Of a stretch of 47,032 bases of DNA, positions 1 to 37,000 are shown piece by piece. The notes under the pieces are model-generated. The model was given only the letters and a program-made list of their open reading frames with translations. It was not told where the DNA came from and ran no database searches. The translations under genes and the position numbers were made by a program. Each line of letters starts with the position of its first letter. Position 1 is the first letter of the stretch. The stretch spans positions 1 to 47,032 of the forward strand of contig NZ_JAAHHG010000032.1 of assembly GCF_010692555.1 (NCBI RefSeq), read 5' to 3'. The DNA is from Okeania sp. SIO3B5 (lineage in GTDB: Bacteria; Cyanobacteriota; Cyanobacteriia; Cyanobacteriales; Microcoleaceae).

Positions 1-1133
1 CAGCAAAAACATAGCAGCATTTTTCACAACGACAACACCAAGGTTTTTGGATATTACAAGAATTTGTGGCGTAAGGTAGTTGGTCTCCTAATTTAAAAAC
101 TAAGTCAAATATTTTCACATCGTGAATGGCTTTGATTAAACTGGTATAATTAATATTAGTAAACATTCTCGCCATTTGTTTTTCTGTTTTTTCACTAGCT
201 TCTAAGCTTTTTTCCCATTGATGTGTGATTGCTTCTCCTGAGTATTTATCAATTAAATTATGAGCATCAGCACTTTTTTCGTGACCAACTAGCAGAATAG
301 GAATTTTATGAATTGCCTGAATAGGTGCCAGAATAAAAGGTAAGACGATACATTCTCCACTAGGAATAGTCCTAAAAGGTTTTTTGTACTCAAAATATCC
401 TTGGGTGCGAGCAACTATGTTAGAAGACTCAACCCTTTGTTTAAGCCAAGGGTAATAAGAGTCCTCAAAGTAGATATAATGCTGTTTCCTATAGTTTAAA
501 TGTTGGCTAGCTTGAGTAAAAAGTTCTTTTTGTTCTTCAATATTGCCATAGGAATTATATAAGCAAGTTAGAATATCGTAATTCATTCCAGCTTTTTGTA
601 AAATTAGACTACATAGTAAGCTATCTTTAACCTGAACCTGAACCTATAATTGTATCTACAGTCTTTTCTTCAGTTTTTAATTTGAAAAGAGGATAGGTAA
701 TATCTTGACCAAGTACTGATGTGTTAACTTTTATTTCTGGACCTTGGTATACAATTTTCCCAACTTGATAGCGATTTTCACTCCAGCATTTGAGGATCAT
801 CGTTTCCAAGAAATTGAGTAATTCTTGGTCAATGAATTGGCTATATTTGCTGAAGTCAATTTTTTGGGGAAGTACACTAGAAAAGCGTAGGCTAAATAAT
901 ACGGCAATAACTACAGCAAAACATTTTACCCGAGCAGGAGAGGCTAAATTTGTATCTTCTAAACTGATTGAGTCATACTTGATAGAACAATCAATTTTTT
1001 CTCCATCTAGGAGATAGCGAAACCATATTTCATTTGATTTAACTAAAACATTTTCTAGGTAAACTTCCTCAACCAGAAAGTCTTCAAATTCTTCGCAGTT
1101 GAAATGATTTTTTGTTTCTAACATTTCTAACAT
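1..1133 (-). pseudogene. MurL-like PP-loop protein, second copy, frameshifted and cut by window edge
   Basis: This is a close tandem paralogue of the gene at 2163-3686. The start at 1133 gives 168 residues that end in the ATP-binding loop as GSGSG-stop. The intact copy has one base fewer here: near position 630 this copy reads tttaacc on the plus strand where the other reads tttacc. The extra base turns the loop lysine codon into TAA. Beyond the stop, the shifted frame remains open and similar to the intact copy down to position 1, including the cysteine cluster. The lesion is therefore recent, or a sequencing error. Position 1 corresponds to 2562 of the other copy, so the last 130 or so residues lie outside the window. 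It follows the oxygenase at 1182-2108 by 48 bp. Confidence 0.85.
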
Positions 1134-1181
1134 TTGGTTATGGTTCTTATTTTATACAAACCTTAAATGAATCTTTAAACT

Positions 1182-2108
1182 TTAAGTTAATTCTTTTGCT
1201 CGACCTGCCCCTTCATGGGTTTCCCAAATTGATCGGTAATCTGTTAGCATTACGTCCATGGTGCTAATTTTTTCATCTGTGCCAAAAGGTTCAATAATTG
1301 AATCAATATTCGGATACAAAAATAGAGGAATTGATATGCGACTTACGGGAAGATTGTGAACAACTTCATGGGGTGTGCTGACAAATTTACCTTTCGTCCA
1401 CATTTGCAATATATCACCTAAATTAATGACAAAAGCATCCTCTAGACATGGAACGCTGATCCAACGACTATCGGTTTTCACCCGCAATGATTCCCCAGGA
1501 AGGTTTTCTTGAATCAATATGGTAAACATTCCACTGTCAGTGTGCTTCCCAGCTTTTCCTGTTTCTGGGGGATAATAAGCAGCACGATGAATTAAAATCG
1601 GATCGGTAAAGAAGCGATCGAACCATCTTGCTTCTAGTCCCAATGCTAAAGCAATTCCCTTTAATAAAGGTGGAACCACTTTCGTCATAATCTCGTTTTG
1701 CAACCGATAATTACAAGAAGCAAAACCAGGTGCAACGGTGTCATCTGGAAAAATAGTCTTTCCTGTAAAAGGTTTCTCAGAATGAGGACGTTCTAAACCA
1801 AAGTTAAAAGATTCTTTCGGGTCAAAACCAGCTGTTCCATTAACAGCTTCACCGTATAGGGGAATGTAACCCCGAGAAGTTTTAGGAGAGACAGTCTGAA
1901 TATCCTGTCGATACTCCTTTTTAATGGCCTCGGGTAGTTTAAAAAATTGCCTAGAAGCAGCGATCGTTTCTTCTATGACTTCTTTGGCAATACCATAATC
2001 ATTCAAATAGAAAAAACCGCTATCGTCGCAAGCAAGATACAATCGCTCGATTTCCTGCGCATCTTCTTGTGCTAACTTTTTGAGGGAAATAATTGGCAAA
2101 TTTTCCAT
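1182..2108 (-). CDS. Isopenicillin N synthase-like Fe(II)/2-oxoglutarate oxygenase (copy 1)
   Basis: The 308-residue protein has the DIOX_N plus 2OG-Fe(II) oxygenase layout of the IPNS/flavonol synthase family. The iron ligands are H189 and D191 (KHTDSG) and H247 (STPHEVVHN). The arginine of the RxS pair that binds 2-oxoglutarate is R257 with S259. Such enzymes hydroxylate, desaturate or cyclise small molecules or amino acids in the cytosol; the substrate cannot be read from sequence. It sits 54 bp downstream of the MurL-like gene and 48 bp upstream of that gene's broken copy, so it is probably in the same transcript. A paralogue of the same length and clearly similar sequence is at 8916-9842. 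Confidence 0.9.
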   Translation of the reverse strand: MENLPIISLKKLAQEDAQEIERLYLACDDSGFFYLNDYGIAKEVIEETIAASRQFFKLPEAIKKEYRQDIQTVSPKTSRGYIPLYGEAVNGTAGFDPKESFNFGLERPHSEKPFTGKTIFPDDTVAPGFASCNYRLQNEIMTKVVPPLLKGIALALGLEARWFDRFFTDPILIHRAAYYPPETGKAGKHTDSGMFTILIQENLPGESLRVKTDSRWISVPCLEDAFVINLGDILQMWTKGKFVSTPHEVVHNLPVSRISIPLFLYPNIDSIIEPFGTDEKISTMDVMLTDYRSIWETHEGAGRAKELT

Positions 2109-2162
2109 ATTGCTCCTGAGATTTTTGTTGTTAATTAAAATAGTTGTTTGTCAGGACTAGAA

Positions 2163-3686
2163 TTATTGCTGGGAAGAGTTCCTTAGAACTGGACTAATTT
2201 TTTGCCACAACCATTCTGGCATAGTATGATGATTTTCATACACTTGACCGAATTGATTCTGAATTTGCTGAAAATAATTTTCTACAGACTTACCACTATT
2301 TTGCAACGGTGTCAAAATTTCCTGTTCAAACAGAGCGATACAGCTGACGCCACGCTCCGCGATCGCCTGATTTCTCACACCTTGTTGATAAACCTTGTAA
2401 AAATAAAGTTGAGTTTCCTCAGGCATTCCTACACATTCCCAAGGAATATAACCTTTTAATCCTAGTAATTCTGACCATATATATAAATTTTCTTCCATGG
2501 CGAAGAGGTCTTTACCAAAAGCTTTAATTACCTTTTCTCTATCTCCATAAGCGCAAAAACCAGCAAAAACATAGCAGCATTTTTCACAACGACAACACCA
2601 AGGTTTTTGGATATTACAAGAATTTGTGGCGTAAGGTAGTTGGTCTCCTAATTTAAAAACTAAGTCAAATATTTTCACATCGTGAATAGGTTTGATTAAA
2701 CTAGCATGATGAATATTATTAAACATTCTTGCCATCTGGTCTTCTATTTTTTCATTAGCTTCTAAGCTTTTTACCCATTGATGTGCGACTGTTTCTCCTG
2801 AATATTTATCGATTAAATTAGGAGCATCAGCACTTTTTTCGTTACCAACTAGCAGCAGAGTAATTTTATGAATTGCCTGAATGGGTGCTAGAAGAAAAGG
2901 AAGGATGATATTTTCTCCAGCAATATTATGAAAAGGTTTTTTGTACTCAAAATACTCTTGGGTGCGAGCGACTATGTTATAACGATCGAACCTTTGTTGA
3001 AGCCAAGGATAATAAGAGTCCTGGAAGTAGATATAATGTTGCTTTCTATAGTTTAAATGTTCGCTGGTTTGAGTAAAAAGTTCTTTTTGTTCTTCAATAT
3101 TGCCATAGGAATTATATAAGCAAGTTAAAATATCGTAATTAACTCCAGCTTTTTGTAATATTAGACTGCATAGCAAACTATCTTTACCTGAACCTGAACC
3201 TATAATTACATCTACAGTATTTTGTTCGGTTTTTAACTCGAAAATAGGATAGGTAACATCTTGACCAAGTAATGATTCGTTAACTTTTATTTCTGGACTT
3301 TGGTACACAAGTTTACCTACTTGATACCGATTTTCACTCCAGCATTTGGGTATCGTAGTTTGCAAGAAATTCAGTAATTCTCGATCGATGAATTGGCTGT
3401 ATTTGCTGAAATCAAATTTTTGGGGAAGTACACTAGAAAAGCGTAGGCTAAATAATACGGCAATAACTACAGCAAAACATTTTACCCCAGCAGGAGAGGC
3501 TAAATTTGTATCTTCTAAACTGATTGAGTCATACTTGACAGAACAATCAATTTCTTCTCCATCTAAGAGATAGCGAAACCATATTTCATTGACTTTAACT
3601 AAAACATTTTCTAGGTAAACTTCCTCAATTAGAAAGTCTTCAAATTCTTGACAGTTGAAATGATTTTTTGTTTCTAAAATTTGCAT
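2163..3686 (-). CDS. MurL-like PP-loop ATP-pyrophosphatase (putative amino acid/peptide epimerase)
   Basis: The protein has 507 residues. An N-terminal domain (about 1-155) precedes a PP-loop ATP-pyrophosphatase domain with the loop GSGSGKDS at 163-170. GNEKSAD follows at 281-287. A cysteine cluster (C357, C364, C365, C367, C370, C371) resembles the metal-binding knot of QueC-type PP-loop enzymes, and ECVG is at 417-420. The order loop, NEKSA, HQW.KSLE, SCN, CxxCxKC, FG.dLf, ECVG matches what I recall of MurL, which activates the carboxylate of UDP-MurNAc-L-Ala-L-Glu as an adenylate and epimerises the glutamate. MurL itself is a cell-wall enzyme; here the neighbours are oxygenase, MDR reductase and methyltransferase genes, so a secondary-metabolism substrate is inferred. 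The alternative is a general PP-loop amide- or thio-forming enzyme. Confidence 0.75.
   Translation of the reverse strand: MQILETKNHFNCQEFEDFLIEEVYLENVLVKVNEIWFRYLLDGEEIDCSVKYDSISLEDTNLASPAGVKCFAVVIAVLFSLRFSSVLPQKFDFSKYSQFIDRELLNFLQTTIPKCWSENRYQVGKLVYQSPEIKVNESLLGQDVTYPIFELKTEQNTVDVIIGSGSGKDSLLCSLILQKAGVNYDILTCLYNSYGNIEEQKELFTQTSEHLNYRKQHYIYFQDSYYPWLQQRFDRYNIVARTQEYFEYKKPFHNIAGENIILPFLLAPIQAIHKITLLLVGNEKSADAPNLIDKYSGETVAHQWVKSLEANEKIEDQMARMFNNIHHASLIKPIHDVKIFDLVFKLGDQLPYATNSCNIQKPWCCRCEKCCYVFAGFCAYGDREKVIKAFGKDLFAMEENLYIWSELLGLKGYIPWECVGMPEETQLYFYKVYQQGVRNQAIAERGVSCIALFEQEILTPLQNSGKSVENYFQQIQNQFGQVYENHHTMPEWLWQKISPVLRNSSQQ
2343..2366 (-). repeat. Possible small dispersed repeat inside the MurL-like gene
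   Basis: A GC-rich stretch in an AT-rich gene reads gcgatcgcggagcgtggc on the coding strand and encodes AIAERGVS. It contains a HIP1 core and the cgga-g-cgt pattern seen in other short GC-rich repeats of this window. It is probably an in-frame insertion near the C-terminus. The broken paralogue cannot be compared because the window ends before this point. Confidence 0.35.
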
Positions 3687-3725
3687 TTTTTCCTGATTTT
3701 TATTTACTTAATATGTGAGTAGTTA

Positions 3726-4787
3726 TTATGGTGTAATTACAACTTTACCAAAGAAGCTTTTGCTTTGAAAAAATTTCTGAGCTTCCTTAATTTCATTCAG
3801 GGGAAAAACTTTAGCTACTTGCGGTTTCAAGAGACCTTTTTCAATATACTGAAGCAAGTTTTGAAACACTTGAGGTTCAAAGCGAGTTGCTCCGATCATT
3901 TCTGTATCTTTGTAAATCAAATCTCGCAAGTCTAGCTCAACTATGGGAGAAGCGATCGCTCCTGCTGTCACATACCGCCCCCCAATACTCAGCGCTTTGA
4001 AAATTATCTCAAAATATTCTCCACCTACCACATCCACGGAAACAGTAATTTCATGCTGCGCCAAATTTGATGCTAATTCATCGTTGCGAGGATAAATATA
4101 ATCAGCACCTAATTCCTTAACTAAATGTTCTTTATTTTTGCCGACAATTGCAATAACTGTTGCTCCTCTTATTTTAGCTAACTGAACAGCGGAACTCCCC
4201 ACACCACCAGAAGCTCCCATAATTACAACAGTGTCTTGATAGCTAACTCTTCCTTTTGTTAAGAGATTTTCTGCCGTAGAATAAGAACAAGGTACAGTAG
4301 CTAGCTCAACATCTGACAGGGATGAATTAATCGGATAAACATTGGTGGCAGGAATAGCAACATATTCGGCAAAACCTCCATTCAATTCACTGCCCACATA
4401 TTGATATTTTTCCCGATTTTCTAACCTGATCCACGGATCAACAATTACCCTTTGATTGAGAAATTTAGGTTCCACATCCGCGCCTATTTCTACAACTTCA
4501 CCGACAATATCTGCACCTTGAATTCTGGGAAATTTTATCCCAGTCTGAGACCAACCTGTAGATTTTTCCTCATCATTTTTCTTAGTATCTTGGAGAATTT
4601 CTTGAAACCCTTCATCTGCTGCATACCATCCAGTACGGGTATTTATGTCTGTATTATTAACAGAACAAGCACCCACTTTAATTAAGACTTCTCCCTGCTG
4701 AGGAATAGGTTTTGCTACTTGGGTATATTCTAATTTTTCCAGTCCTCCATACCCAGTTAGCAGAACAGCATTCATTAATTGTGTCAT
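3726..4787 (-). CDS. MDR-family (zinc-type alcohol dehydrogenase/quinone oxidoreductase-like) oxidoreductase
   Basis: The 353-residue protein is a medium-chain dehydrogenase/reductase. It has a GroES-like N-terminal domain and a Rossmann NAD(P)H site around residue 192 (MGASGGVGSSAVQLAK). It has GADIVGEVVEIG where zinc alcohol dehydrogenases carry a GHE-type motif, so it probably lacks the catalytic zinc and belongs with quinone oxidoreductase/enoyl reductase-like members. It could reduce or oxidise a C=C or carbonyl intermediate. The start lies 10 bp after the stop of the methyltransferase remnant (4798), and the MurL-like gene begins 39 bp downstream, so it looks like the middle of an operon. 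Confidence 0.85.
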   Translation of the reverse strand: MTQLMNAVLLTGYGGLEKLEYTQVAKPIPQQGEVLIKVGACSVNNTDINTRTGWYAADEGFQEILQDTKKNDEEKSTGWSQTGIKFPRIQGADIVGEVVEIGADVEPKFLNQRVIVDPWIRLENREKYQYVGSELNGGFAEYVAIPATNVYPINSSLSDVELATVPCSYSTAENLLTKGRVSYQDTVVIMGASGGVGSSAVQLAKIRGATVIAIVGKNKEHLVKELGADYIYPRNDELASNLAQHEITVSVDVVGGEYFEIIFKALSIGGRYVTAGAIASPIVELDLRDLIYKDTEMIGATRFEPQVFQNLLQYIEKGLLKPQVAKVFPLNEIKEAQKFFQSKSFFGKVVITP

Positions 4788-5071
4788 AGTTGCTCTATTA
4801 TTTGTAGCTTACCAAAAATTTGCCATCAATAATCTGATATCCTTGCTTAAATCCAGCATCAGTCAGCGCTTGAGTTGTCTGTCGTCCATCAAAAAAATAA
4901 AAACGGCAAAATTGTTCGCCGAGAATTTCTCCATTAGCTTGAGAAAACACATACCACTTATCAAGATAATTTCCCTCTTTCTTGATTTTCTGCTCATAAA
5001 AAATCTCTTCTTTGATTTCCTTTTTATAGTTGGTATGACCTCCCTGAATTCCTAATGCTAATAATCCACCG

Positions 5072-5200
5072 TTCTTAGAAACCTACGATAATCTATAAAA
5101 ATCTATGATTATCTGTTCCATTCCTGCTTCTACCTGGCAACGTCGGCGTTATCCAGTCCACAGGCTGACACGGACGAACTGCCCGCCATAGCTAAATTTA
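5072..5200 (-). ncRNA. Probable omega-RNA scaffold/right end of the tnpB element
   Basis: TnpB guide RNAs are made from the 3' end of tnpB plus the element's right end, with the guide just outside the end. This segment, the last tnpB codons and about 58 bp beyond, is kept in the miniature copy at 10009-10092. That suggests the sequence itself matters. It is placed by position and conservation between two copies only; no structure was computed. Confidence 0.35.
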
Positions 5201-6285
5201 ACGCTGCATTTCCTACGGAATGCTTCGCAAACAAGTCTCGATCGCAACTGAAATTGCAGTGTTCACAATTGAATACACGCTCCGATAAAGACAGAGACTG
5301 TTTCACCTGACCACAGTGAGAGCAAGTCTTAGAGCTAGGAAACCATCTATTAACAACGATTAACTCAGAACCGTATAACTCACACTTGTACTCTAACTGT
5401 CTTCTGAATTCATAAAAACCCATCTCGCCAACAGCCTTAGCTAGCTTATGGTTAGCCATCATGCCTGATACATTTAAATCTTCTATTACTATCTGGCTGT
5501 GGTTTTTAGCCAAGTAAGTAGTTAGCTTGTGCAATGTATCTTTTCTGATGTTAGCTATCCTTTTGTGTAACTGAGCTATCTTAAGTTGAGCCTTTTTCCA
5601 GTTCTTAGAGAATTTAGTTTTATGTCTGTTGAGGTATTGCAACCGAGAGAGTTTAGCTTCTAACTTTCTTAAAGATTTAGCACCAACAAAAACTTCACCA
5701 GTAGATAACGTAGCTAGAGATTTTATACCTAAGTCTACACCAACTACATCTACTGATTTATCACTAATTTGGGGTATCCTTTCCATTTTGAAACTAATAA
5801 ACCATCTATCAGCTTTTCTGCTAATAGTTACAGATTTAGGAGTTACATTACCTGGCAAAATTTCATAAGTTTTAATCCATCCAATTCGAGGTAGTTTTAT
5901 CTGATTAAAACCTACCGATATTGAGCCATCTAGAGTAAAACTATCATCCCTACCTTTTTTCTTGAATTTAGGTTGACCAGACACTCTGTTAAAGCAGCGC
6001 TTCCAAGCTTCTGATAAATACCTTAAAGCATATTGAGGTGCTGTTTTAGATACTTCATAATACCAATAGTTTTTAGGTTTGACCATTGCTACTAATAGTT
6101 TATGCAAATCAATAGCAGTAGGAAATTTCAGCTTACTCTCAGGATTATTGGAATTGTGCTATACGGATGTTTCTAGTTAGCCATAACCCCCAATTCCAGG
6201 CGTGACGAGCTACACCAGAGTGTTTAGCCAGTAATGTTTTTTGTTGGTTATTCGGATGTAGTTCAGTATGATATCCAAGTAGCAT
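5130..6285 (-). pseudogene. tnpB: TnpB (IS605 OrfB, RNA-guided nuclease), frameshifted
   Basis: The RuvC-like catalytic sites are visible: D in GVDLGIKSL, E in IVIEDLNVSG, and DRD near the C-terminus, with a zinc-finger pair CSHCG and CEHC. The longest open frame starts at 6107 but lacks the normal N-terminus. That N-terminus is present upstream in another frame: ATG at 6285 encodes MLLGYHTELHPNNQQK and runs 46 codons to TAA at 6145-6147. The frame resumes as NNPESKLKFPTAIDLHK. A frameshift near 6147-6165 therefore separates about 45 residues from the rest. A 21-bp insertion also sits between DRD and the conserved NAA. Both lesions make activity unlikely. Confidence 0.85.
5211..5231. repeat. 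21-bp dispersed repeat inserted in tnpB
   Basis: The 21 bases (tcctacggaatgcttcgcaa plus one a) encode the extra seven residues FAKHSVG between DRDL and NAALNLA of TnpB. Nearly the same 21 bases occur at 27721-27741 in unrelated DNA. Removing them restores the usual DRDxNAAxNL motif. This fits the very small mobile repeats of 21-27 bp described in cyanobacteria. Confidence 0.75.
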
Positions 6286-6870
6286 AAACAGATAATCCCA
6301 GATTTTTATAGATAATACCAGATTTTAGCCAACAGTTACAAACCCTCGTCTAACTGACTGTGTAACTTTGCTAGCAACTGCTTATTTTTCTCTGGATCGC
6401 TTATGTGACTACAAATTCTATATTCTCCATTTTCTTCCACTACACAAATAACGCCTCCAGTTGAAACTATAGCTTCAAACTTTTCCTTACTTTCAAATTT
6501 TATAATATCTTCACAAATCAACCTAACATCTGAATTCCCTAATCTCTCCTTAGCAATTTCCAACATTCGGGGAGAAAAATCAACGCCAACAATGTTATAG
6601 TTTGCCAAAGAAAGCATTTTTTCAGTAAGTAATCCAGTTCCTATACCAATATCTAAAACTTTTCTTCTAGTGCCAAGTAAGTTGTACAAGATATTGCTAA
6701 GGGAATCATAGTTAAAGTATCCACTTGTCAATAGATTGTCATAATAATTTACTATCTCAACGTACTCGTTAATCATTTATTTTTATAGTAGGGAGTAGGG
6801 AGTAGGGAGAGTAGGGAATAGGGAAGATTTTTTTAGAAAAAAAACACGGAAAATGATTTTTTGAGTTATT

Positions 6871-6996
6871 ATAGCGCTGTGCGCAGGCAACAGGCAACAG
6901 GCAACAGGCAACAGGGGGAATAAAAAGCTTATCATATAACACTTTCAGCTATTGGACACCTCCAGCAATTTGTAAATATGCCAGCGCTCATTGCTA
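6871..6996. repeat. MITE-like element, ATAGC...GCGC family, copy 1
   Basis: The left end ATAGCGCTGTGCGCAGG and the inverted right end ATAGCAATGAGCGCTGG agree at 13 of 17 positions. The inside contains a CAGGCAA heptamer run. A second copy is at 10228-10374. Confidence 0.65.
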
Positions 6997-7008
6997 TACA
7001 CTCTAGTT

Positions 7009-7220
7009 TATAGAACCCCTAAGCGTATCTTTTAGCTCTCTCCACCAAATGAGGGAGTAGGGAGTAGGGAGTAGGGGGGAAATAATTGATGACACGCTCT
7101 ACAATAAAAGAGCATGATTTTTGATGATTGGAAATATCTTTCTCCGAAAAGATATATGCTTAAGTTAAGTATAAAGAGCGTACACCTAAATTTTTAGAGA
7201 TGCCACTCAGGGGTTCTATA
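7009..7220. repeat. MITE-like element with perfect 12-bp inverted ends TATAGAACCCCT
   Basis: TATAGAACCCCT at 7009-7020 is matched by its reverse complement AGGGGTTCTATA at 7209-7220. A GTAGGGA heptamer run lies inside (7051-7078). It has no coding capacity. Confidence 0.6.
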
Positions 7221-7255
7221 GGAAATAAAGGGCAAGTTTATTTTCTGGAGATGTC

Positions 7256-7600
<345 letters not shown>

Positions 7601-7794
7601 TAGACATAGCTGTAAAAATCAAAAATAAAATCAATTCTTATACATAAATTATCAATTATTTCTTTCTGTTGCCTGTTGCCTGTTGCCTGTTGCCTCTTTT
7701 CTGGAGATGTCTAATCAAAAATCTCAAATCACTCGTTATTGTACAACGCCATTTTTATAATATCTATCGCGATACATAAATAATGCGCAACAGC

Positions 7795-8532
7795 TTATTC
7801 AATACGCAACCGATATTCATAAAGTTTTTGGTAATAAGGTAAACAATACTCGTATGCTTGTTTTAAGTGAGCGTTATCTTCTATCTTCGCATAATTTTTT
7901 GGCTTTGGTTCATGGAAATAGGAACTTGAGAGTGCATAAGTATGCCATCCACCCTCCCATTCTTTGATTTGAGTTTGAGACTCAGCTTTCCATTCTAAAG
8001 CTTCTTTAATGAACGGTATGTCTACAGCTTTGCAATAAGCCTTAATAGTTGCTTCTGGCTTTTTTACTAAATCGTCCGAATCAATTAAGGTTGGTACTTT
8101 TCCACCGATTTCCTTAACCTGATGAAATAGCTGATAAACTCCTTCATATCCAGCTTCTTTTAAAGTAAAATCAGGTCTCAACTCAAAAAGTGATGGGAGC
8201 ATTTTGATTGGATTTCTAATCAGAAAAGTATTCTCAAAATTAGATAAAAACTCTTGGTTAGCTATATGCATGACATAGTAGCTCATGTCTTTAATAAAAA
8301 CTGGTTGCTTTTCAGTTTCTTGCTTTAACTTTTCCAAAATAGAGCTGAAATTATATTCAGAGCTTGGCTCTATGTCTGGATAACGAGTAGTATTACAACG
8401 TTCTTTACTGTAGTAATAAGATAGCCCAAAAGGTTCGTCATGTACCTCAAAATCTCCCCGTTCCTGCATCATGCACTCAAATGCAGTGGAAGTAGCTCGT
8501 GGCGTTGTCCACAATGCTAATATTTTTTCCAT
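7795..8532 (-). CDS. Sulfotransferase-like family protein
   Basis: The 245-residue protein opens with ALWTTPRATSTAFE, the position and pattern of the 5'-phosphosulfate-binding loop. It has FLIRNPIKMLPSLFEL in the middle, which fits the 3'-phosphate-binding RxP...S segment of PAPS-dependent sulfotransferases. Members of this small family are often annotated only as sulfotransferase-like and many lack proven activity. It is co-directional with the oxygenase upstream (8916-9842) and the methyltransferase remnant downstream, but repeat-filled gaps of 384 and 1018 bp mean its own transcript is possible. Confidence 0.75.
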   Translation of the reverse strand: MEKILALWTTPRATSTAFECMMQERGDFEVHDEPFGLSYYYSKERCNTTRYPDIEPSSEYNFSSILEKLKQETEKQPVFIKDMSYYVMHIANQEFLSNFENTFLIRNPIKMLPSLFELRPDFTLKEAGYEGVYQLFHQVKEIGGKVPTLIDSDDLVKKPEATIKAYCKAVDIPFIKEALEWKAESQTQIKEWEGGWHTYALSSSYFHEPKPKNYAKIEDNAHLKQAYEYCLPYYQKLYEYRLRIE

Positions 8533-8915: not shown

Positions 8916-8918
8916 TTA
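8765..8918. repeat. Dispersed repeat with GTCAGCATTCAGC inverted ends, short copy
   Basis: gtcagcattcagc at 8765-8777 pairs with gctgaatgctgac near 8893-8905. The segment around caattagtaaagctttta and the word aagcaatagctga match the longer copy at 27711-27977. Its right edge overlaps the stop codon of the oxygenase gene at 8916. Confidence 0.6.
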
Positions 8919-9842
8919 TACTAATTCTTTGGCTCTACCTGCCCCTTCGTAGGTTTCCCAAATTCCCACAAAATTCTTGATCATTACTTCCTGAGAAATA
9001 ATTTTTTCTTCAGTGCCAAAGGGTTGGATTACTGTATCAATATTCGGATAAACAAACAATGGTATGGAAATCCGAGTTGTATCAGGATTATTATGAATTA
9101 CTTCATGGGCAGTGCTGACAAATAACCCATTTGTCCATGTTTGTAACAGATCCCCTAAATTAATTACAAACGCATCTTCTTGACAGGCAGCATCTATCCA
9201 TTCTTCTTTAGCATAAACTCTTAAAGAAGGTTGAGGAAAGTATTCTTGGATTAAGACTGTGAAAATTCCGTTATCGGTATGTTTTCCTGCTTTCCCTACC
9301 CCTGCTGGATAATAAATGGCACGATGAATTAATACTGGATCGGTAAAAAAGCGATCGAACCAATTTGCTTCTAATCCTAAAGCTAACGCTAATCCTTTTA
9401 ATAATTTAGGAACCACATTTGTCATTATTTCATTTTGTAACTGAAAATGAGAACTAGCAAAACCTGGGGCTACACTATCGTCGGGAATAACATTGGGACC
9501 GGTGAACGGTTTATCAGACAGAGGTTTCTCTATACCTAAATCGAAAAATTCTTTTAAATCTCCTTGTACTCCATCCAAAAATTCTCCATACAAAGGAGAG
9601 TAACCCCTACAAGTTTTGGGATAAACTTTTTGGAGTTCTTGACGGTAGTTTAATTTAACATCTTCAGGTAGTTTAAAAAAATTCCGAGATGCCTCAATAG
9701 TTTGATTGATTATTTCTGGGGAAACTCCATGTTCTTTAAGATAGAAAAAACCATGTTCGTAGCAAACATCGTACAATTTTTTAATTTCTTGAGGGCTAGC
9801 TTTTTCTAATTCTGATAAGGAGATAATTGGCAGACTTTTCAT
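8916..9842 (-). CDS. Isopenicillin N synthase-like Fe(II)/2-oxoglutarate oxygenase (copy 2)
   Basis: The 308-residue protein has the same length and architecture as the one at 1182-2108. The iron ligands are H188 and D190 (KHTDNG) and H246 (STAHEVIHN), and the co-substrate pair is R257/S259. Both share GRAKEL at the end and GYxPLYGE, KPFTG and DRFFTDP blocks, so they arose by duplication. Differences cluster around residues 85-110 and 200-220, where substrate-contacting loops often lie in this family, so they may act on different substrates or steps. The TAA stop falls on the edge of a dispersed repeat. Confidence 0.9.
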   Translation of the reverse strand: MKSLPIISLSELEKASPQEIKKLYDVCYEHGFFYLKEHGVSPEIINQTIEASRNFFKLPEDVKLNYRQELQKVYPKTCRGYSPLYGEFLDGVQGDLKEFFDLGIEKPLSDKPFTGPNVIPDDSVAPGFASSHFQLQNEIMTNVVPKLLKGLALALGLEANWFDRFFTDPVLIHRAIYYPAGVGKAGKHTDNGIFTVLIQEYFPQPSLRVYAKEEWIDAACQEDAFVINLGDLLQTWTNGLFVSTAHEVIHNNPDTTRISIPLFVYPNIDTVIQPFGTEEKIISQEVMIKNFVGIWETYEGAGRAKELV

Positions 9843-10584: not shown

Positions 10585-11265
10585 TTAACAAACTGCAAAT
10601 GCCCAATAGTGCGCCCCTTCTTCGGCAATATATGGACCATCCTTAACATGGTTGACCAATTTGACTTTACCTTCTTGTTGGTAGCGGTTGCAAATCTCTT
10701 GGAAATTAGTGCTATCGTAATAGCTCTTGCGGGTACTTACTACCACCCAACCACCTGGTTTGGTAATTCGGATTAGTTCTGATAAAGCAGTTGGTGGCAC
10801 ATGACCTAAAGTGAACACGCCACAACAAATTGTCGCATCATATTGGTTGTCCTCATAAGCTTCATTTTGTTTGGTGAGGTCAATTCCACTTTCCAGAAAA
10901 TTATAAGCACCTGTCGAACGAGCTTGTTCTACCATTCCTTCAGACAAATCAGCTCCATCTACACCATGATAACCTTTTTGCTTGAGGACAGTACCCACTA
11001 AACCTGTACCGCACCCTGCATCTAGAATTTTGATCTGACGATCGCTCGAGTCTACTGTTTTTAAGCCATTATTGCTTTTCAGTGTTGTCAATAAGTTGAC
11101 AATATATTCTGGTCCTATATACTGTTCATTGGACACATCGCTGTTATATGCGACCGCCCATTTGTCGTAGTATGTTTGGATCTTTTCAGCATCACCAGAC
11201 AGAGTATGAGCTTCTTTTATTGCGTCAAAACTCTCGTTTTCTTTACTCTTTACTGCTTGATTCAT
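10585..11265 (-). CDS. Class I SAM-dependent methyltransferase
   Basis: The 226-residue protein has motif I ILDAGCGTGLVGTVL, the acidic motif II segment VDGADLSEGMVEQA, motif III-like YDATICCGVFTLGHV and the post-motif helix ITKPGG. The CG(V)FTLGHVPP segment is typical of METTL27/WBSCR27-like methyltransferases, whose substrates are mostly unknown. The start at 11265 is followed by a polar leader of about 35 residues before the fold. It is the most upstream of the tailoring-type genes on this strand, separated from the oxygenase by 742 bp of repeats. Confidence 0.85.
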   Translation of the reverse strand: MNQAVKSKENESFDAIKEAHTLSGDAEKIQTYYDKWAVAYNSDVSNEQYIGPEYIVNLLTTLKSNNGLKTVDSSDRQIKILDAGCGTGLVGTVLKQKGYHGVDGADLSEGMVEQARSTGAYNFLESGIDLTKQNEAYEDNQYDATICCGVFTLGHVPPTALSELIRITKPGGWVVVSTRKSYYDSTNFQEICNRYQQEGKVKLVNHVKDGPYIAEEGAHYWAFAVC

Positions 11266-22542: not shown

Positions 22543-24344
22543 TCAGGTAAGTCCTGTAACTTTGGCGCATGAATATGTCTTTTTATCTAAGGCAGTTTTA
22601 GTATCGTGGCAATGTCGGTGCAACAATTGTTTATTCTTATATGTGTTGTCACCACCCTTAGACCTTGGTATTATATGGTCAACTTCCAGTAGGTCAGTCG
22701 GTCTAAAGGTTAGTCCACAAAATGCGCATTTATTATTTTGCCGTTTTAACAGCGTTGTAACTTCTTTCCTTACGCCCGGATATTTACCAATTCTATTACT
22801 CCAATAAGTCCAGTCGCCGTCATAAGGGGATTTATTACCTTTAACTTTTATGTGCCTTATGATAGGTACATCAGAGTGTAGGTTTAGTATATATTTGCCG
22901 TCATTAAGTACCCAATCTCGGATTTCTTTGCAGCAAGGATAATACTTTTCTTTCACCCATTGAGCTGACTTATTTGGATGCCTTCTACTTGACCATCTCC
23001 ATAATCTTTTCCATAAGAGATTGTCTAAGTTATAGAATATCTCTTTACTGACTGTTGCTGAGTAGTAGTTAGCCCATCCTCTGATTATCGGATTTAACTT
23101 AGCTATTAAAGCTTTAGCAGGAGCGGTTTTGTGAGAATCACATATACCCGCCAATTTCCGATAATGAGTTTTTATACTTTTAGATGATGGCTTAATCAGC
23201 GTTTTATACCCCCGTTTGGTTGACTTTATCTTCCATTGCCTGATTGTGAATCCCAGAAAGTCAAATCCGGGTTTATTTCCCTCGTACTCTTCCAAGGTGT
23301 GGGCAATTTTGGTTTTTTCTGGTTTTAGTTCTAATCCTACCTGGCTTAACCATTCCTGTATTACGGTTTTTGCTTTTAACACTACTTTGATGTCTTCATG
23401 TAGGATAACAAAGTCGAGACTCATAGCGTACTAAGCTGAGGCTATTACGTTTTTCCTTTTTATTCTTTTTGCTCCCAGATGGGTGCTTGAGTTCAAGTTT
23501 TTCTGCAAACTTTTTAAGTCTTTCCTCCATACCGTGCAGGGAGATGTTTGCGCTTTTGGGGACTTATTACCCCTCCCTGTGGTGTACCTTCCACAGATTT
23601 TAGGAATTGATTATTATCGAACACTCCAGACTTTAACCATTGTTTGATTAATCGTCTGTAAGGAGATTGTCCTATCTTTCCTAAGAGTGCATCGTGGTTA
23701 ATTCGGTCAAAACATTTGGATATGTCAGCATCTAACACATATTTTGGTTTTTTATTGATGCTGCTAAAGATGGCCTCTATGGCATCATGTGTTGACCACC
23801 GGAAAAGACCATAGCTATTAGGCTCAATACGTGCCTCCCACTCTGGTTCCATACCCAACTTAACCAAAGCTTGTAACGCTCTGTCGTACATCGTAGGGAT
23901 GCCTAATGGACGTTTTTCATTTTTACCTGGTTTTGGTATATAGACCCTGCGGGTGGGACTTGCTTTGATGTGGCGTGATGAAAGTAGGTCCACCAAGTTT
24001 AGTCGCTGCATAGGAGGTAGGTTTTTGATGCCATCTATCCCCGCAGTTTTCTTACCTTGGTTATCCTGTGTCACGCGTCTGACAGCCAGCAACCTTGCGT
24101 AATAACTTTTTAAAAGAAGTTTTTGGTATCTGCGCATCTTGCGGAGTTCGCCACGGCTGGATGCAATGTATATCAATTTTTGTAATCGAAACACAGATTT
24201 CTCTACCTTCTTCCAATTAATATCCTTCCATTTAAAGTTAGGATTGATTGAAACTTGTGAGGGTATATCCTCTGTATCCCATGCTACGCTTAAAAATGGC
24301 TTAGGGTTTCCTAATCTTCTTTTTAGTGTCTGAGCTTTATTCAT
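22543..24344 (-). pseudogene. ltrA: Group II intron reverse transcriptase-maturase-HNH endonuclease, frameshifted
   Basis: The first part (24344-23514) holds the N-terminal region and RT blocks with RVYIPKPGKNEKRPLGIPT, VLDADISKCFDRI and GTPQGGVISP. An extra base just after ISP (near 23553) shifts the frame; the shifted frame continues as ANISLHGMEERLKKF and on to NSLSLVRY. A second lesion near 23425-23435 replaces the first Asp of the catalytic YADD: TAT is followed by seven bases before GAC TTT, where six are expected. The remaining frame (from about 23424) has DFVILHED, the maturase domain X with GWANYYS, and a C-terminal HNH domain (CAFCGL, VDHIIPRSKGG, HRHCHD). It is dead as a reverse transcriptase. 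Confidence 0.88.
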
Positions 24345-31012: not shown

Positions 31013-34000
31013 TTAGCATCTGCTGTTATCATTGGTAGGTGGTATATGCACATGGGAATCCCTCAATCGCTTTTCAGCAATTTTACGCTCCGTCTCATTG
31101 TCAGTTACTGGGAAATGCGCTAACGCTACTTCGTCTACTTTTCCTTGGTGAGTCAAAGGTAAACTTGATACAGGAACATAAGCTCCTGGCATCATGTATG
31201 GAGGTAACTGTTGTTGAATTTGGGAGTCTAATTTTTCGGGATTCCAGACTCCGGCCACCACAACATAAGCTACTAGGAATGTTTGATGAGCTAATACATA
31301 AGCTTCTTCTACTCCGGCAACTGATAACAGAGCAGTTTCTATGTCTGCTAGTTCTATTCGCTTTCCTTGAATCCATGTATGCCGTTGTTTTGTTCCGACT
31401 ATTTCTAGATAACCTTTGTTGTGATAACGACCTATGTCTCCTGTTTGAAATAGTTTACCTAATTGTGGGTGTTCTATAAATTTCTGTGATGTCTGTTGCT
31501 GTTGATGCAGATAACCTCTGGCTAAACTGGAACCTCCAATATAGATTTCTCCTGGTACTCCAGTGGGAACAGGGTCTTGGTGTTGGTCTAGTACATAAAC
31601 TGATAACCGACCAGGGTTGCCTAGGGGTACATTTTCTCTCTTGGGTTCTTCTACCCATTCCCAGTGGGTAACTTCTCCTCCTGCTTCTGGGAGACTGTAG
31701 AAATTATGTAATGAAACTGGGTAAGTTTCGACAAATTTGTTGGCTATTTCTGTTGATAGGGTTTCTCCACTGCTAAGGAGCGATCGCCAACTCTTCAAAG
31801 ATTCTGCCTGGTTAGTTGTATTTAACCAGGTGGGTAGTTCTGACGGATACAGGTGAAGTATGGTAACTTTGTGCTTGCCGATTAATTGCTGTAATTTTGT
31901 TGGCTCGTTATTTGCAGCTATAACGACAGTACCACCACTGATTAGAGGTAAACCTATTTCTAGAAGAGCTACATCTTGAGTCAGAGATGTTTTATGTAGT
32001 AGAATATCTTGATTAGTTATTTTCAGTGTTTCTTGTAGCCATTGTAAACGTTGAGCTACAGCTTGATGTTCGACTAGCGAGCAGGATGCTCGCGCTGGGG
32101 TTTGATTGAGGATATAGGCAAGGTTGGTGGCTGTTGTTCCTGTATTTGGGTTGTCTGTATTGTGTTTAGCTATTGATTCCCACTCCGTGTCTAGACACAG
32201 AATTTGAGCATTGGAGTCAGGAATTTCTGATTTGAGGTCGTTTAGGGTTAATATTACCGAAATTGACTGTAAATCCTGTGATTTGTCCGTTGGATCTATT
32301 GCTACATAAGCTCCTCCTGCTTTGAGTATTGCTAATAAACCAACGACTCTTTCTACAGTAGGGTCAATATATATGCCTATTGGTGTTTCTGTGCTTATGC
32401 CTAAACCTAATAGATGGTGGGCAAGTTGGTTAGCTTTGTAGTTGAGTTGGGCGTAGGTTAATTGTTGGTCCTCAAATATTAAAGCTACTGCATTTGGGTT
32501 CTTTTGAACAACATTCTCAAATAATTGATGGATACATTTGTCTGTTGGATAATCTATTTTGCTGTTATTCCATTCCTGCAGAATTTTTTGTTTTTCTGCT
32601 GCTGTAATTAGGGGAAGTTTCGAGATTTTTTCTTGGGGGTTGGCTACTATTGCTTCTAGTAAAGTTAGGAAATGTTCCATCAACCTAGCAATGGTTGCTC
32701 CGTCAAATATGTCTGTGTTGTAACAAACATAAGCTTCGTGTTCTGGTCCTGATGGTGCTTTCCAGAGATATATTTCTAAATCCATTCTACTAGCAATGTC
32801 TGGATAATCTGCAACCCTAGGAGTCACTCTTAATCCTGGTAAATCCCAAGAGTTCAGTGATTTTATATTTAGAAAGTCAAAGTACACTCGCATTAGACGA
32901 TTTTCCTTAACTTCCGTACCTGGAATAAGTTCCTCTAATAGCTGTGGAAATTGTAAATTCTGATGTTTATAGGCATCTTCAGTTGTTTGTTTGACTTGAG
33001 TTAACAATTCGGTAAAGCTAGAGTCATCTGAGAACTGAGAACGAATTGGAAGCATGCTTGCAAACATACCAATTAATGGTTCGATTTCGACTCGGTTGCG
33101 GTTAGCAGTTATTGCACCTACTATTAAGTCAGACTCTCCACTATAACGATACAATAAGACAAAAGTTGCACTCAGCATAGTCGTAAATAATGTTGTACCT
33201 AACTCTTGACCAAGTTGCTCAAGTTTCTGTATTAAGTTCTGATTGAGTTCCAATGTTTCAAATCTTCCCTCGCGACTTTGCACTTCTGGAGGTCGGCGGT
33301 CTGTTAGTAGGGGTAATATTGAGGAAGTTCCTGCTAGTTTGTGTCTCCAGTAGCTTAGATGTTCTTCTAATACCTCTGCTGTTTGTTGTCGTTGCCAGTG
33401 GGAGTAGTCGGCATATTGAATGGGTAGTTCTGGTAATGGGGATGGGTTTCCTTGAATGTAGGCTTCATACAATTTATATAGTTCTGAGATTAGTATGTTT
33501 ATAGACCAACCGTCATATATTATGTGGTCTATGACCAATATTACTACATGAGTTTCTGGGCTAAGTCGTACGAGGGTGACAGACAGCGGGGGGCTTGCTA
33601 GGTCAAAGTGTTTTTGGGCTTCAGTTCTGACTAGCTGTTCAAGTTTGGTTATCTGTTCTGCTGATGATGGTAATTCTATTACCGACAGATTAATTTTGGC
33701 GACGGTCGAAATTACTTGTATGGGTTTTCCGTCTATAGAGGGGAAACTGGTCCGTAGACTTTCGTGTCGTCGGATGATTTCGTTGAGGCTTTGCTCTAAG
33801 ACTGCTTTATTTAGAAAACCATCCACGGTAAAACTAAACATACCGTTTAACGGACGCCAGCCCAAAATAATTTCTTGAGGGTAAGAAAGGGGAATTTCCT
33901 GTTCCCTAGAAACCCTTGGAATAACTTGACTTTCCTTTGGTTCCAACTCTTGTTCAACTAAAACTTCTGCTAGTTGAGCGATAGTAGGATTTTGAAATAG

Positions 34001-37000
34001 CTTACTTATAGAGAACTCTACTGGCAATCTTTGTTGCACCCGAGACACAACCTGAGTGGCATTCATAGAATGGCCACCTAAATCAAAGAAGTTATCGTGT
34101 ATACCTATCTGTTCTATACCCAACACTTCTCTCCAAATCTCTGCTAATGCCTTCTGTGTCTCCGTCTCAGGAGCTACATACTCCGTTGACACACTACTGA
34201 GATTATCCGGTACAGGTAATGCCTTCCGGTCTACTTTTCCACTTGGAGTCAGAGGCAGTTGCGACAACACTACAAAACCGCTCGGTATCATATACTCCGG
34301 AAACTGCTCTTTCAGATACTGTTTCAATTTCTTGATTTGTTCTGCCTCTGATATCTCTTGGTTTGAGCTAGCTAGAGTTTGGGTTTCTAACACTATATAC
34401 GCCACTAAACGTTTATTACCTAGGTTGTCTTCGGTGGCTAATACTACTGTTTCTTTAACTATATTATGTTGAGTTAGGGTCGCTTCTATTTCCCCCGTTT
34501 CTACCCGGTATCCTCTGATTTTTACTTGGTTGTCTATCCGCCCTAAAAACTCTATGTTGCCATCAGCTAGATAACGACATAAGTCTCCTGTTCTATATAA
34601 TTTTGTGACTTTTGAGTTATCAAAAGTATGAGGGATGAATTTCTCAGTTGTTAATTCTCGCCGGTTCAGATAACCATTTGCCAGACCGACTCCACCAATG
34701 TAAAGTTCTCCTGGAACCCCTACTGGCAATGGTTGTTGCTCACCACTGAGAACATAAAGTTGAGTATTGGCAATCGGACGACCTATCGGGGGGAGTTTCG
34801 GCCAGTTATCCGCATCTCCTTCTAATGTGTAAGCAGAAACTACATGGCTTTCTGATGGTCCATATTGGTTTTGCAGTCTACATTCAGGCAGTCGCTTCAT
34901 CATCTCCACCAGGTCTGCTGTCACCTGCAATTGTTCCCCTGCTGTTACTATTTCTCGCAATGGTGGCAGATTTTGGCATTGAGATGCCACTAAGGCCAAC
35001 TGTTGTAAAGCTACAAAGGGTAAAAATAGTCGCTCTACCTGATTGTGAGTTAAGAATTCCATCAATCCTAACGGATCACGCCTCAGTTCTGAAGACACTA
35101 ATACCAGAATCCCTCCTGAACAAAAAGTGGAGAATATTTCTTGGAAGGATACGTCAAAGCTAATAGGAGCAAATTGCAGAGTTTTTGCTCCTTGACCAAC
35201 TATTGTTTCCTGCTGTTGCCAAAGGATTAGATTCACCAGAGAACCTTGGCTCATAGCCACTCCTTTTGGCTTACCTGTGGAACCAGACGTATAAATAACA
35301 TAGCCCAAGTTCGATGGTTTGACTTCACTAATTAAATTGCCTTGAGAACAGTCTGACCATAGGTTGTCGTTACTATCTAAACACACTATCTGAGCTTCAT
35401 ATTCTGATAATAACGTTACTAATGATTGCTGAGTTAGCAATATGGATACTTGGGAATCAGAAATCATATAAGCCAAACGTTCTGATGGATAATTGGGGTC
35501 TAGTGGCACATAAGCTCCTCCAGCTTTGAGTATGGCTAATATACCTACTACCATTTCTACTGAACGCTCTACACATATACCCACTAGGGTATCTGGAACT
35601 ACTCCCAACTTTTGCAAGTAATGTGCTAGTTGATTAGCTTTGCTATTTAATTCCGAATAGGTCAGCTTTTGTTGTTCAAATACTACTGCTGCTGCATCTG
35701 GGGTTTTCTCTACCTGCTCTTCAAATAATTGACGGATACACTTGTTATTTGGGTAATCTGTTTTCGTATTGTTCCATTCCACCAGTATTTGGTCTCGCTC
35801 TGCCTCTTTCATTAATGGCAGCTTGCTCACAGGTTGCTCGGTCGTCTCTACTGCTGCTGATAGTAAGTTTTCATAATGTGACACCATGCGACTAATTGTT
35901 TCGGCTGAGAACAAGTCTCGGTTATAGGCACAGAATCCTTTGATTTCCTCTCCTACTGGCCACAGATGTAACTCTAAGTCAAACCTCACTGTCATCTCAG
36001 CTCCTCCCCCTTCATACCAACCTACTTCCAAGTTGGGTAAGCTAAAGGATGGTTTTAATACTTCCTCCTGCTGAACGGCAAACATTACCTGAAACAAGGG
36101 GCTTTGCGATAAAGAACGTTCTGGTTGCAACTCTTCTACCAATTTCTCAAAGGGTATGTCTTGATTACCATAAGCTTCTAGAGCTGTTTGTTTAACTCGA
36201 TTTAATACCTCTGTGAAACTAGGGTCTCCTCCTAGGTCTGTGTACATGACTAGGGAGTTGACAAAGAAACCGATCAACCCCTCTATTTCTCGGCGGTTGC
36301 GGTTAGCTATAGGTGAACCTACTGCTATACTTTCTTGACCACTGTAACGAGACATTAAGACTTTGAAGGCTGCTAACAGGGTCATAAATAGGGTAGTTCC
36401 CTGCTTTTGACTCAGTTGTTTAACTTTTGAGGTCAGCTCTGCTGGTATGTTTATGGGTATACCTGCTCCATTAAAAGTTTGAACTGGAGGTCGGGGATGG
36501 TCTGTGGGTAGTTGTATTTGAGGTAAGTCTTGGAGCTTTTGCCTCCAGTAACTTAGTTGACTTTCTAGGGTTTCACCTTGTAAATAGTTCCTTTGCCACA
36601 CTGCAAAGTCCGCATATTGTATGGGCAACTCTGGTATTGGGGATGGTTGGTCTTGCACTATGGCAGTGTAAATAACTGAAAGTTCCTTGGGTAATACTGT
36701 AAGTGACCAGCCATCGCTTGCTATGTGATGTAATATGATTTGCAGTATGTGTTCTGCTTTTCCTAGTTTAAACAACTGAGCCCGTATGGGGGGGTCTACT
36801 TCTAGATTGAATGAAAGTTCATTTTCTTGTTGGAGTAGTTGTTGCAGTTTGGTGGTTTGCTCAGATGGTGTTAACTCACTTAGGTCTTGTATAGGTAGTT
36901 CTAATTCAAAGGGGGATTGAATTATTTGTACTGGTGTGTCGTTGATTTCACTGAAAGTTGTTCTCAGAGTTTCATGGCGAGCAATGATTTGGTTGAGACT

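Follow-up and report, generated by a model that had tools for sequence, protein, structure and literature searches.

What does an enzyme resembling the peptidoglycan epimerase MurL do beside an oxygenase, a reductase and a methyltransferase in a cyanobacterium? The question is raised by the start of a 47,032-nucleotide stretch of DNA from Okeania sp. SIO3B5 (the window, which is the whole of contig C246). An original prediction, made from the letters alone, had read positions 1-6776 as an undescribed operon of five co-directional genes, in which a carboxylate is adenylated, inverted at its alpha-carbon, oxidised, reduced and methylated. We find that the PP-loop protein is, judged by its sequence, MurL-like and neither QueC nor MurL itself, that the oxygenase and the MDR reductase belong to a conserved and apparently undescribed cyanobacterial operon, and that the PP-loop gene is an accessory to that operon. 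We propose, with a probability of roughly 45%, that the enzyme adenylates the carboxylate of an N-methylated amino-acid metabolite supplied by the operon and most likely then epimerises it.

Genes at positions 1-6776

All five genes lie on the minus strand, and the gaps between them, in order 48, 54, 39 and 10 bp, are exactly those predicted:

1-1133 (pieces 627-1133 and 1-586), minus strand: MurL-like PP-loop gene copy 1, with a frameshift in the P-loop and truncated by the contig edge
1182-2108, minus strand: Fe(II)/2-oxoglutarate (2OG) oxygenase, intact (Pfam DIOX_N and 2OG-FeII_Oxy)
2163-3686, minus strand: MurL-like PP-loop enzyme copy 2, intact, 507 amino acids (NCBIfam MurL, 5.5e-20, 71.3 bits)
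3726-4787, minus strand: MDR reductase, quinone-reductase-like, intact (family models; identity to other MDRs)
4798-5067, minus strand: methyltransferase MT1, C-terminal part, severed by a TnpB element (88% identical to residues 185-273 of the gene in genome G250)
5068-6335, ends approximate, minus strand: TnpB element inserted in MT1 (placed from the MT1 flanks; TnpB open reading frame (ORF) at 5130-6107)
6336-6776 (gene piece 6345-6776), minus strand: methyltransferase MT1, N-terminal part (Pfam; 81% identical to the uninterrupted G250 gene as a flank of the insertion, and 89% over 144 amino acids in another comparison)

Three genes remain intact (PP-loop copy 2, the oxygenase and the MDR reductase), and two of the five, PP-loop copy 1 and MT1, are broken; this damage, like the continuation of the cluster on both sides, goes beyond what had been predicted. 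Read in two frames, the pieces of copy 1 share 84% and 86% identity with copy 2, and the TnpB ORF scores 267.8 bits against NF040570 guided_TnpB (cut-off 100). Copy 2 looks to be under constraint, its ratio of nonsynonymous to synonymous substitution (dN/dS) being 0.24 against the orthologue in genome G093 (compare 0.20 for a Moorena pair and 0.12 for a Calothrix pair) and 0.35-0.38 against the broken copy 1.

The PP-loop protein and its relation to MurL and QueC

MurL consumes a single ATP, which ends up as AMP, to turn the terminal glutamate of a peptide from L to D, and an adenylate has been proposed (PMC5808125, PMC8788868). The motifs that had been quoted for the window protein (NEKSA, SCN, CxxCxKC and ECVG) are present, in full as SGSGKDS, NEKSA, SCN, WCCRCEKC and ECVG, and they agree with the MurL family pattern of a PP-loop, SCN, WCxxCxKC and EC(V/I)G, with 17 columns invariant in 24 sequences. 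The protein had no Pfam match, and its sole NCBIfam match was MurL, with 71.3 bits against a 700-bit cut-off that represents Xanthomonadales and that five gammaproteobacterial relatives, scoring 379-550, also fail to reach. When its profile was compared with those five relatives by hhalign, the probability was 99.7% (E 1.2e-25) over 412 columns, nearly the full length, versus 0.3% for the genome's own QueC, and no QueC model in Pfam or NCBIfam matched the protein at E<=1; QueC is ruled out by sequence. The predicted grouping with MurL and not with QueC was thus borne out at the level of sequence, but the protein is not a MurL orthologue.

In a tree of 42 rows, the window protein fell outside the MurL rows (support 93/95) in a clade of its own, clade A (100/100). 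Clade B (94/95) and clade C (4 rows, 100/99) were likewise separate, and A, B and C together were parted from the MurL side at 97/99, a split that carries a long-branch warning. The genome holds two MurI genes over cut-off, and the PP-loop protein is therefore not needed for D-glutamate or peptidoglycan; the host does not lack another source of D-glutamate.

A PDB sequence search with the protein gave no match. Its AlphaFold2 model, with a predicted local distance difference test score (pLDDT) of 63 and a predicted template-modelling score (pTM) of 0.63, has the fold of PP-loop ATP pyrophosphatases, and its best structural matches were QatC (Z 9.9 over 289 residues) and QueC (Z 9.6 and 9.3).

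A conserved operon around the oxygenase

The oxygenase is an Fe(II)/2OG enzyme by its domains and its HxD...H and RxS motifs, and the residues H189-x-D191, H247 and R257-x-S259 are invariant in 24 aligned rows, a complete set as had been stated. The label "IPNS-like" was loose: the nearest solved structures were other members of the superfamily, headed by an ethylene/succinate-forming-type 2OG enzyme (2e-40), and isopenicillin N synthase (IPNS), which is not the nearest characterised relative, followed at 3e-12.

Matches to the oxygenase (E<=1e-40) were found in 27 of the 388 sampled genomes of the order, or 26 without a single 37% match (G324), which was excluded. The 20 regions fetched around these matches come from 19 genomes, and several end at contig ends. 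Of the 20, 17 contain a homologue of MT2, a methyltransferase also encoded in the window, and 14 contain HIBADH (in one case just 33% identical). An enolase-superfamily gene is likewise present in 14, fragmentary in one of them and split into two pieces in another; MDR was found in 10, once as a fragment, and a sulfotransferase-like gene in 7. The usual order is MT2-MDR-HIBADH-MLE (enolase superfamily)-(EamA-like, sulfotransferase-like)-oxygenase, as in genomes G076 and G057 and in Moorena bouillonii (G160), and the window MDR is 62-78% identical to the MDRs of this operon. Most gene types of the cluster recur together in other genomes, which is more than chance. A conserved unit with the oxygenase and MDR stands, although it is MT2-MDR-HIBADH-MLE-oxygenase and not the five genes predicted, and none of the 20 regions has a PP-loop gene.

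The enolase-superfamily residues K165, D193, E218, D241 and K265, which we take to be catalytic, are kept in 13 rows. PDB searches with HIBADH, MT2 and MDR named their families and nothing more specific. In genome G282 the operon is followed by genes for an ATP-binding cassette (ABC) ATPase and for a permease/binding protein of the OpuAC type, and the operon of G285 encloses an MscS channel gene. Relatives of the oxygenase on rhizobial plasmids are 47% identical; in one of three such regions read, on a Mesorhizobium amorphae plasmid (L146:1467-9930), an MT2-like gene (42%) and the oxygenase gene (47%) lie within 8.5 kb. In the parts of the literature searched, with subscription journals for the most part and bioRxiv outside the search, no paper tied MurL-like proteins to betaines, to ergothioneine or to the operon.

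Distribution and neighbours of clade A

The clade A gene is patchy. It was found in 11 of the 388 genomes of the order (six full genes, five remnants or fragments), in 2 of 386 genomes of a phylum sample that overlaps the order sample (G000, and a remnant in G153), in 1 of 369 genomes from the class of a gammaproteobacterial metagenome-assembled genome (MAG), namely that MAG, and at six loci of the genome collection, one again in Moorena bouillonii. Within the order, the oxygenase is present in 10 of the 11 genomes with a PP-loop gene versus 16 of the 377 others (Fisher 3e-12) and, when counted by genus, in 5/5 versus 6/144 (Fisher 8e-7), both being tests that ignore phylogeny.

An MT2-like methyltransferase gene lies beside the clade A gene in Moorena bouillonii, in G057 and in a Parabeggiatoa MAG (Pfam score just below the cut-off), and two Calothrix MAGs have the methyltransferase MT417 there, with genes for an ABC ATPase and an OpuAC-type protein coming next in one of them; a similar pair lies near the clade A gene of locus L062. 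The neighbours in G084 include two methyltransferases, an aminotransferase and a TauD protein, and no methyltransferase was seen near the gene in G093 or G110. Altogether, 7 of 10 clade A loci have a methyltransferase of the list no more than 6 kb away, versus 1 of 20 control regions, which were taken at round coordinates on large contigs. Two methyltransferases also stand beside the clade A gene of the gammaproteobacterial MAG (L059:417-6117), together with SbnA and SbnB of 2,3-diaminopropionate synthesis, both over their cut-offs.

Sister clades beside methylated-amino-acid genes

Among the 38 stronger rows of the PP-loop match list, 27 loci were assigned to clade B and 10 to clade C. Locus L174 was left out of B, having no long PP-loop ORF; L187 was moved from C to B (82% versus 28% identity); and C includes L177, which is 37% identical to each of the two. 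Clade B proteins, mostly 451-452 amino acids long, share 24-29% identity with that of the window. Within 6 kb of their genes lie EgtD (10/27), EgtB/OvoA-type (10/27) and EgtC (3/27) genes, ProV/OpuBA-type genes (7/27), Opu-type permease/binding proteins (6/27 and 4/27) and, at 21 of the 27 loci, a DUF427 gene at a median distance of 23 bp (for example, L150:8572-10848). Examples over cut-off were EgtD (403.6 bits, cut-off 290.9), EgtC (332.1, 218.65), the OvoA N-terminal model (577.7, 400), ProV (415.7, 326.6) and ProX (446.6, 215), and one EgtB was just below (322 versus 360). At L165, the methyltransferase beside the clade B and Egt genes is of the MT2 type, 57-60% identical to MT2 of two oxygenase operons (L129, L137). 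Radical-SAM genes were seen near the clade B gene in 8 loci.

In clade C, an MDR orthologue 70-74% identical to that of the window occurs at 8 of the 10 loci and a butyrobetaine-dioxygenase-like gene at 7. The locus L183:4907-12433, for example, holds MDR, MurL-like and dioxygenase genes with NADAR-domain and isochorismatase-type genes, and a gene resembling sarcosine/dimethylglycine methyltransferases (331 bits, cut-off 550); ORFs resembling NadC or NadB lie near some clade C loci. Over the three clades, a gene of the betaine list lies near 29 of 47 PP-loop genes (A 3/10, B 18/27, C 8/10) versus 3 of 20 control regions (Fisher 4e-4).

Proposed function and alternative explanations

Starting from the homology, clade, motifs, conserved operon, co-occurrence in the sampled order and neighbourhoods that were observed, we suggest the following role. 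The intact PP-loop protein is best explained as a member of the MurL superfamily of ATP pyrophosphatases. ATP would be bound in the SGSGKDS loop and would adenylate the carboxylate of a small metabolite with a methyl-blocked alpha-nitrogen (a betaine or an N-methyl amino acid); most likely the alpha-carbon would then exchange its proton and the adenylate be hydrolysed, as proposed for MurL. The operon would make or tailor this metabolite by methylation (MT2), hydroxylation (Fe/2OG oxygenase), oxidation of a beta-hydroxy acid (the HIBADH-like enzyme), chemistry at the alpha-proton (the enolase-superfamily enzyme) and reduction of an ene or carbonyl group (MDR), together with optional sulfation and export. 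Adenylation is likely and the substrate class plausible, and the epimerisation step is a lead. The order of the operon's steps we infer; the predicted succession from adenylation to methylation was guesswork, and the enolase-superfamily enzyme could also do alpha-carbon chemistry. As to the product, glutamate betaine was considered as a candidate, with nothing found in its support, and an N-methylated diaminopropionate is hinted at by one locus (L059), which is too little to claim.

Peptidyl and permethylated amino acids have a blocked nitrogen in common, which would bar pyridoxal-phosphate racemases, and it is because of this shared feature that we guess that those MurL-like enzymes encoded next to methylated-amino-acid genes activate carboxylates of this kind. 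A wider, rather unlikely extension is that MurL-like PP-loop enzymes outside peptidoglycan synthesis are widespread in cyanobacteria as ATP-driven epimerases of permethylated amino acids, on which such racemases cannot act (betaines such as hercynine or ergothioneine), with the window enzyme as a branch that serves the product of the undescribed operon.

Several observations weigh against the proposal. The structural model is moderate (pLDDT 63), and its best Foldseek E is 3e-3. Five of the 11 genomes with a PP-loop gene hold just a remnant or fragment, and, among the loci seen, the predicted pairing with the oxygenase is intact in the window only, with decayed remnants of the PP-loop gene adjoining the oxygenase in G250 and G305. 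No oxygenase orthologue was found in any of the five clade A genomes outside the sample (a 30% match in G1040 was not counted), nor in G153, and therefore the PP-loop enzyme does not need the operon. The methyltransferase and betaine lists were picked after the loci had been seen, the former being drawn from the clade A loci themselves; clade A alone (3/10 versus 3/20) is not clearly enriched in betaine genes, and the betaine link rests mainly on clades B and C, at about 24-31% identity.

These findings bear on the idea, which we consider quite unlikely, that the PP-loop enzyme has nothing to do with the operon and stands by chance in a mobile, duplicated island. Its gene is separate from that of the oxygenase in G057, G093, G110, G084 and Moorena bouillonii, is missing from all 20 oxygenase regions, and is found without an oxygenase orthologue in all five outside genomes, and the island is rich in duplications and carries a TnpB insertion; against it stand the 10/11 co-occurrence in the order, the decayed adjacency seen again in two genomes and the same kind of MDR beside clade C genes. 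Alternatively, the adenylated carboxylate may be passed to ammonia or an amine, as by QueC-type and asparagine-synthetase-type enzymes, making the protein a ligase or amidase. We hold this to be unlikely, if worth keeping in view: the best structural matches are QatC and QueC, followed by argininosuccinate synthase and the nitrile synthetase ArtA, and an asparagine-synthase gene adjoins one clade C gene (L178), against which stand the silence of the QueC models and the hhalign contrast between QueC and the MurL relatives. A true MurL making D-glutamate for peptidoglycan, to which the nearly full-length homology and the common motifs would point, is hardly credible; it is already contradicted, and a MurL orthologue ruled out, by the score of 71.3 against 700 bits, the separate clade and the two MurI genes, and no Mur ligase was found among the PP-loop neighbours tested.

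MurL has an unusual chemistry and an unsettled mechanism. The discovery of three sister clades in cyanobacteria, two of which neighbour methylated-amino-acid genes, would carry stereoinversion driven by ATP, or carboxylate activation at the least, over to substrates of a new class, and cousins beside ergothioneine and other methylated-amino-acid genes suggest a new role for the enzyme family. The discovery would also help to assign a function to an operon whose oxygenase occurs in 26 of 388 sampled genomes.

Extent of the island and other features of the window

On the side of higher coordinates, the island continues with three further genes:

7795-8532, minus strand: Sulfotransfer_5 protein, same island (Pfam; relatives in 7/20 oxygenase regions)
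8916-9842, minus strand: second Fe/2OG oxygenase (Pfam; 64% identical to the first)
10585-11265, minus strand: methyltransferase MT2 of the conserved operon (Pfam; homologue in 17/20 oxygenase regions)

On the other side, the end of contig C335 (42719-43119) matches copy 2 at 96%, and its 127 codons, which fit the C-terminal end of copy 1, are probably the last of that gene. The window contig and C335 appear to adjoin, with about 10 bp missing between them, because in two genomes of the same genus (G250, G323) eno (99%) and a psbB-like gene of a photosystem II family (98%) share one contig, with MT2, oxygenase, MT1 and MT232 genes between them. The window genes appear to be the middle of an island bounded by eno and the psbB-like gene.

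About 13 ORFs of the island lie on C335: a HIBADH-like dehydrogenase, two CmcI-like proteins, MT232, a butyrobetaine-dioxygenase-like TauD protein, a 295-amino-acid protein, two enolase-superfamily genes, a Sulfotransfer_5 gene, an SMR-type transporter gene, a second gene resembling it and an SDR gene, and then the photosystem II gene. A PhyH-like label for the 295-amino-acid protein was withdrawn, neither it nor its relative in G282 having a Pfam match. Spread by phages or plasmids was rejected, with one weak phage-record match, three weak plasmid matches and no relative in viral contigs.

PP-loop copy 2 carries an in-frame repeat insertion of 8 residues (2332-2367, the ERGVSCIA region), which is absent from 5 other clade A genes aligned and present in the C335 end of copy 1, and the genome has similar stretches of about 32-50 bp at 11 further sites. 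Upstream of MT1 (6787-7695) are short tandem arrays of the 7-bp units AGTAGGG, CAGGCAA, AGGGAGT, CTCCTGA and CTGTTGC. A group II intron reverse transcriptase/maturase at 22543-24344, in two ORFs (RVT_N + RVT_1; GIIM + HNH), is probably broken. Large nonribosomal peptide synthetase genes occupy 31013-47030, the one tested (37351-42033) having condensation, adenylation, methyltransferase and carrier domains; eno and other genes lie between them and the island.

Comparison with known systems

Ergothioneine/ovothiol and betaine-uptake neighbourhoods (EgtB, EgtC, EgtD, OvoA, ProVWX) hold clade B genes in many cyanobacteria. The window island differs from them in that no gene tested gave an Egt family and no EgtB or EgtD lies adjacent, the genome's only EgtD match being on contig C342, away from the island. 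Two C335 genes resemble known enzymes at scores under the cut-offs: an enolase-superfamily gene reaches 373 bits against the cis-3-hydroxy-L-proline dehydratase model NF043002 (cut-off 500), with K165 and K265, D193, E218 and D241 kept, and the TauD gene shares its family with gamma-butyrobetaine and trimethylaminoethylphosphonate dioxygenases at 199 and 210 bits (cut-offs 414.75 and 400).

With PP-loop enzymes of the QueC, QatC and Cap9 type, the window protein shares the fold of the ATP domain and a cysteine cluster near the C-terminal end, presumably a zinc site, and it differs in matching no sequence model of theirs and in having extra parts. With MurL it shares SG-G-KDS, NE(K/R)SA, SCN, WCxxCxKC and EC(V/I)G and the profile match over 412 columns. 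Unlike MurL, it forms its own clade, reaches a tenth of the cut-off score, is longer, lacks a Mur ligase among the neighbours tested and belongs to a host with MurI.

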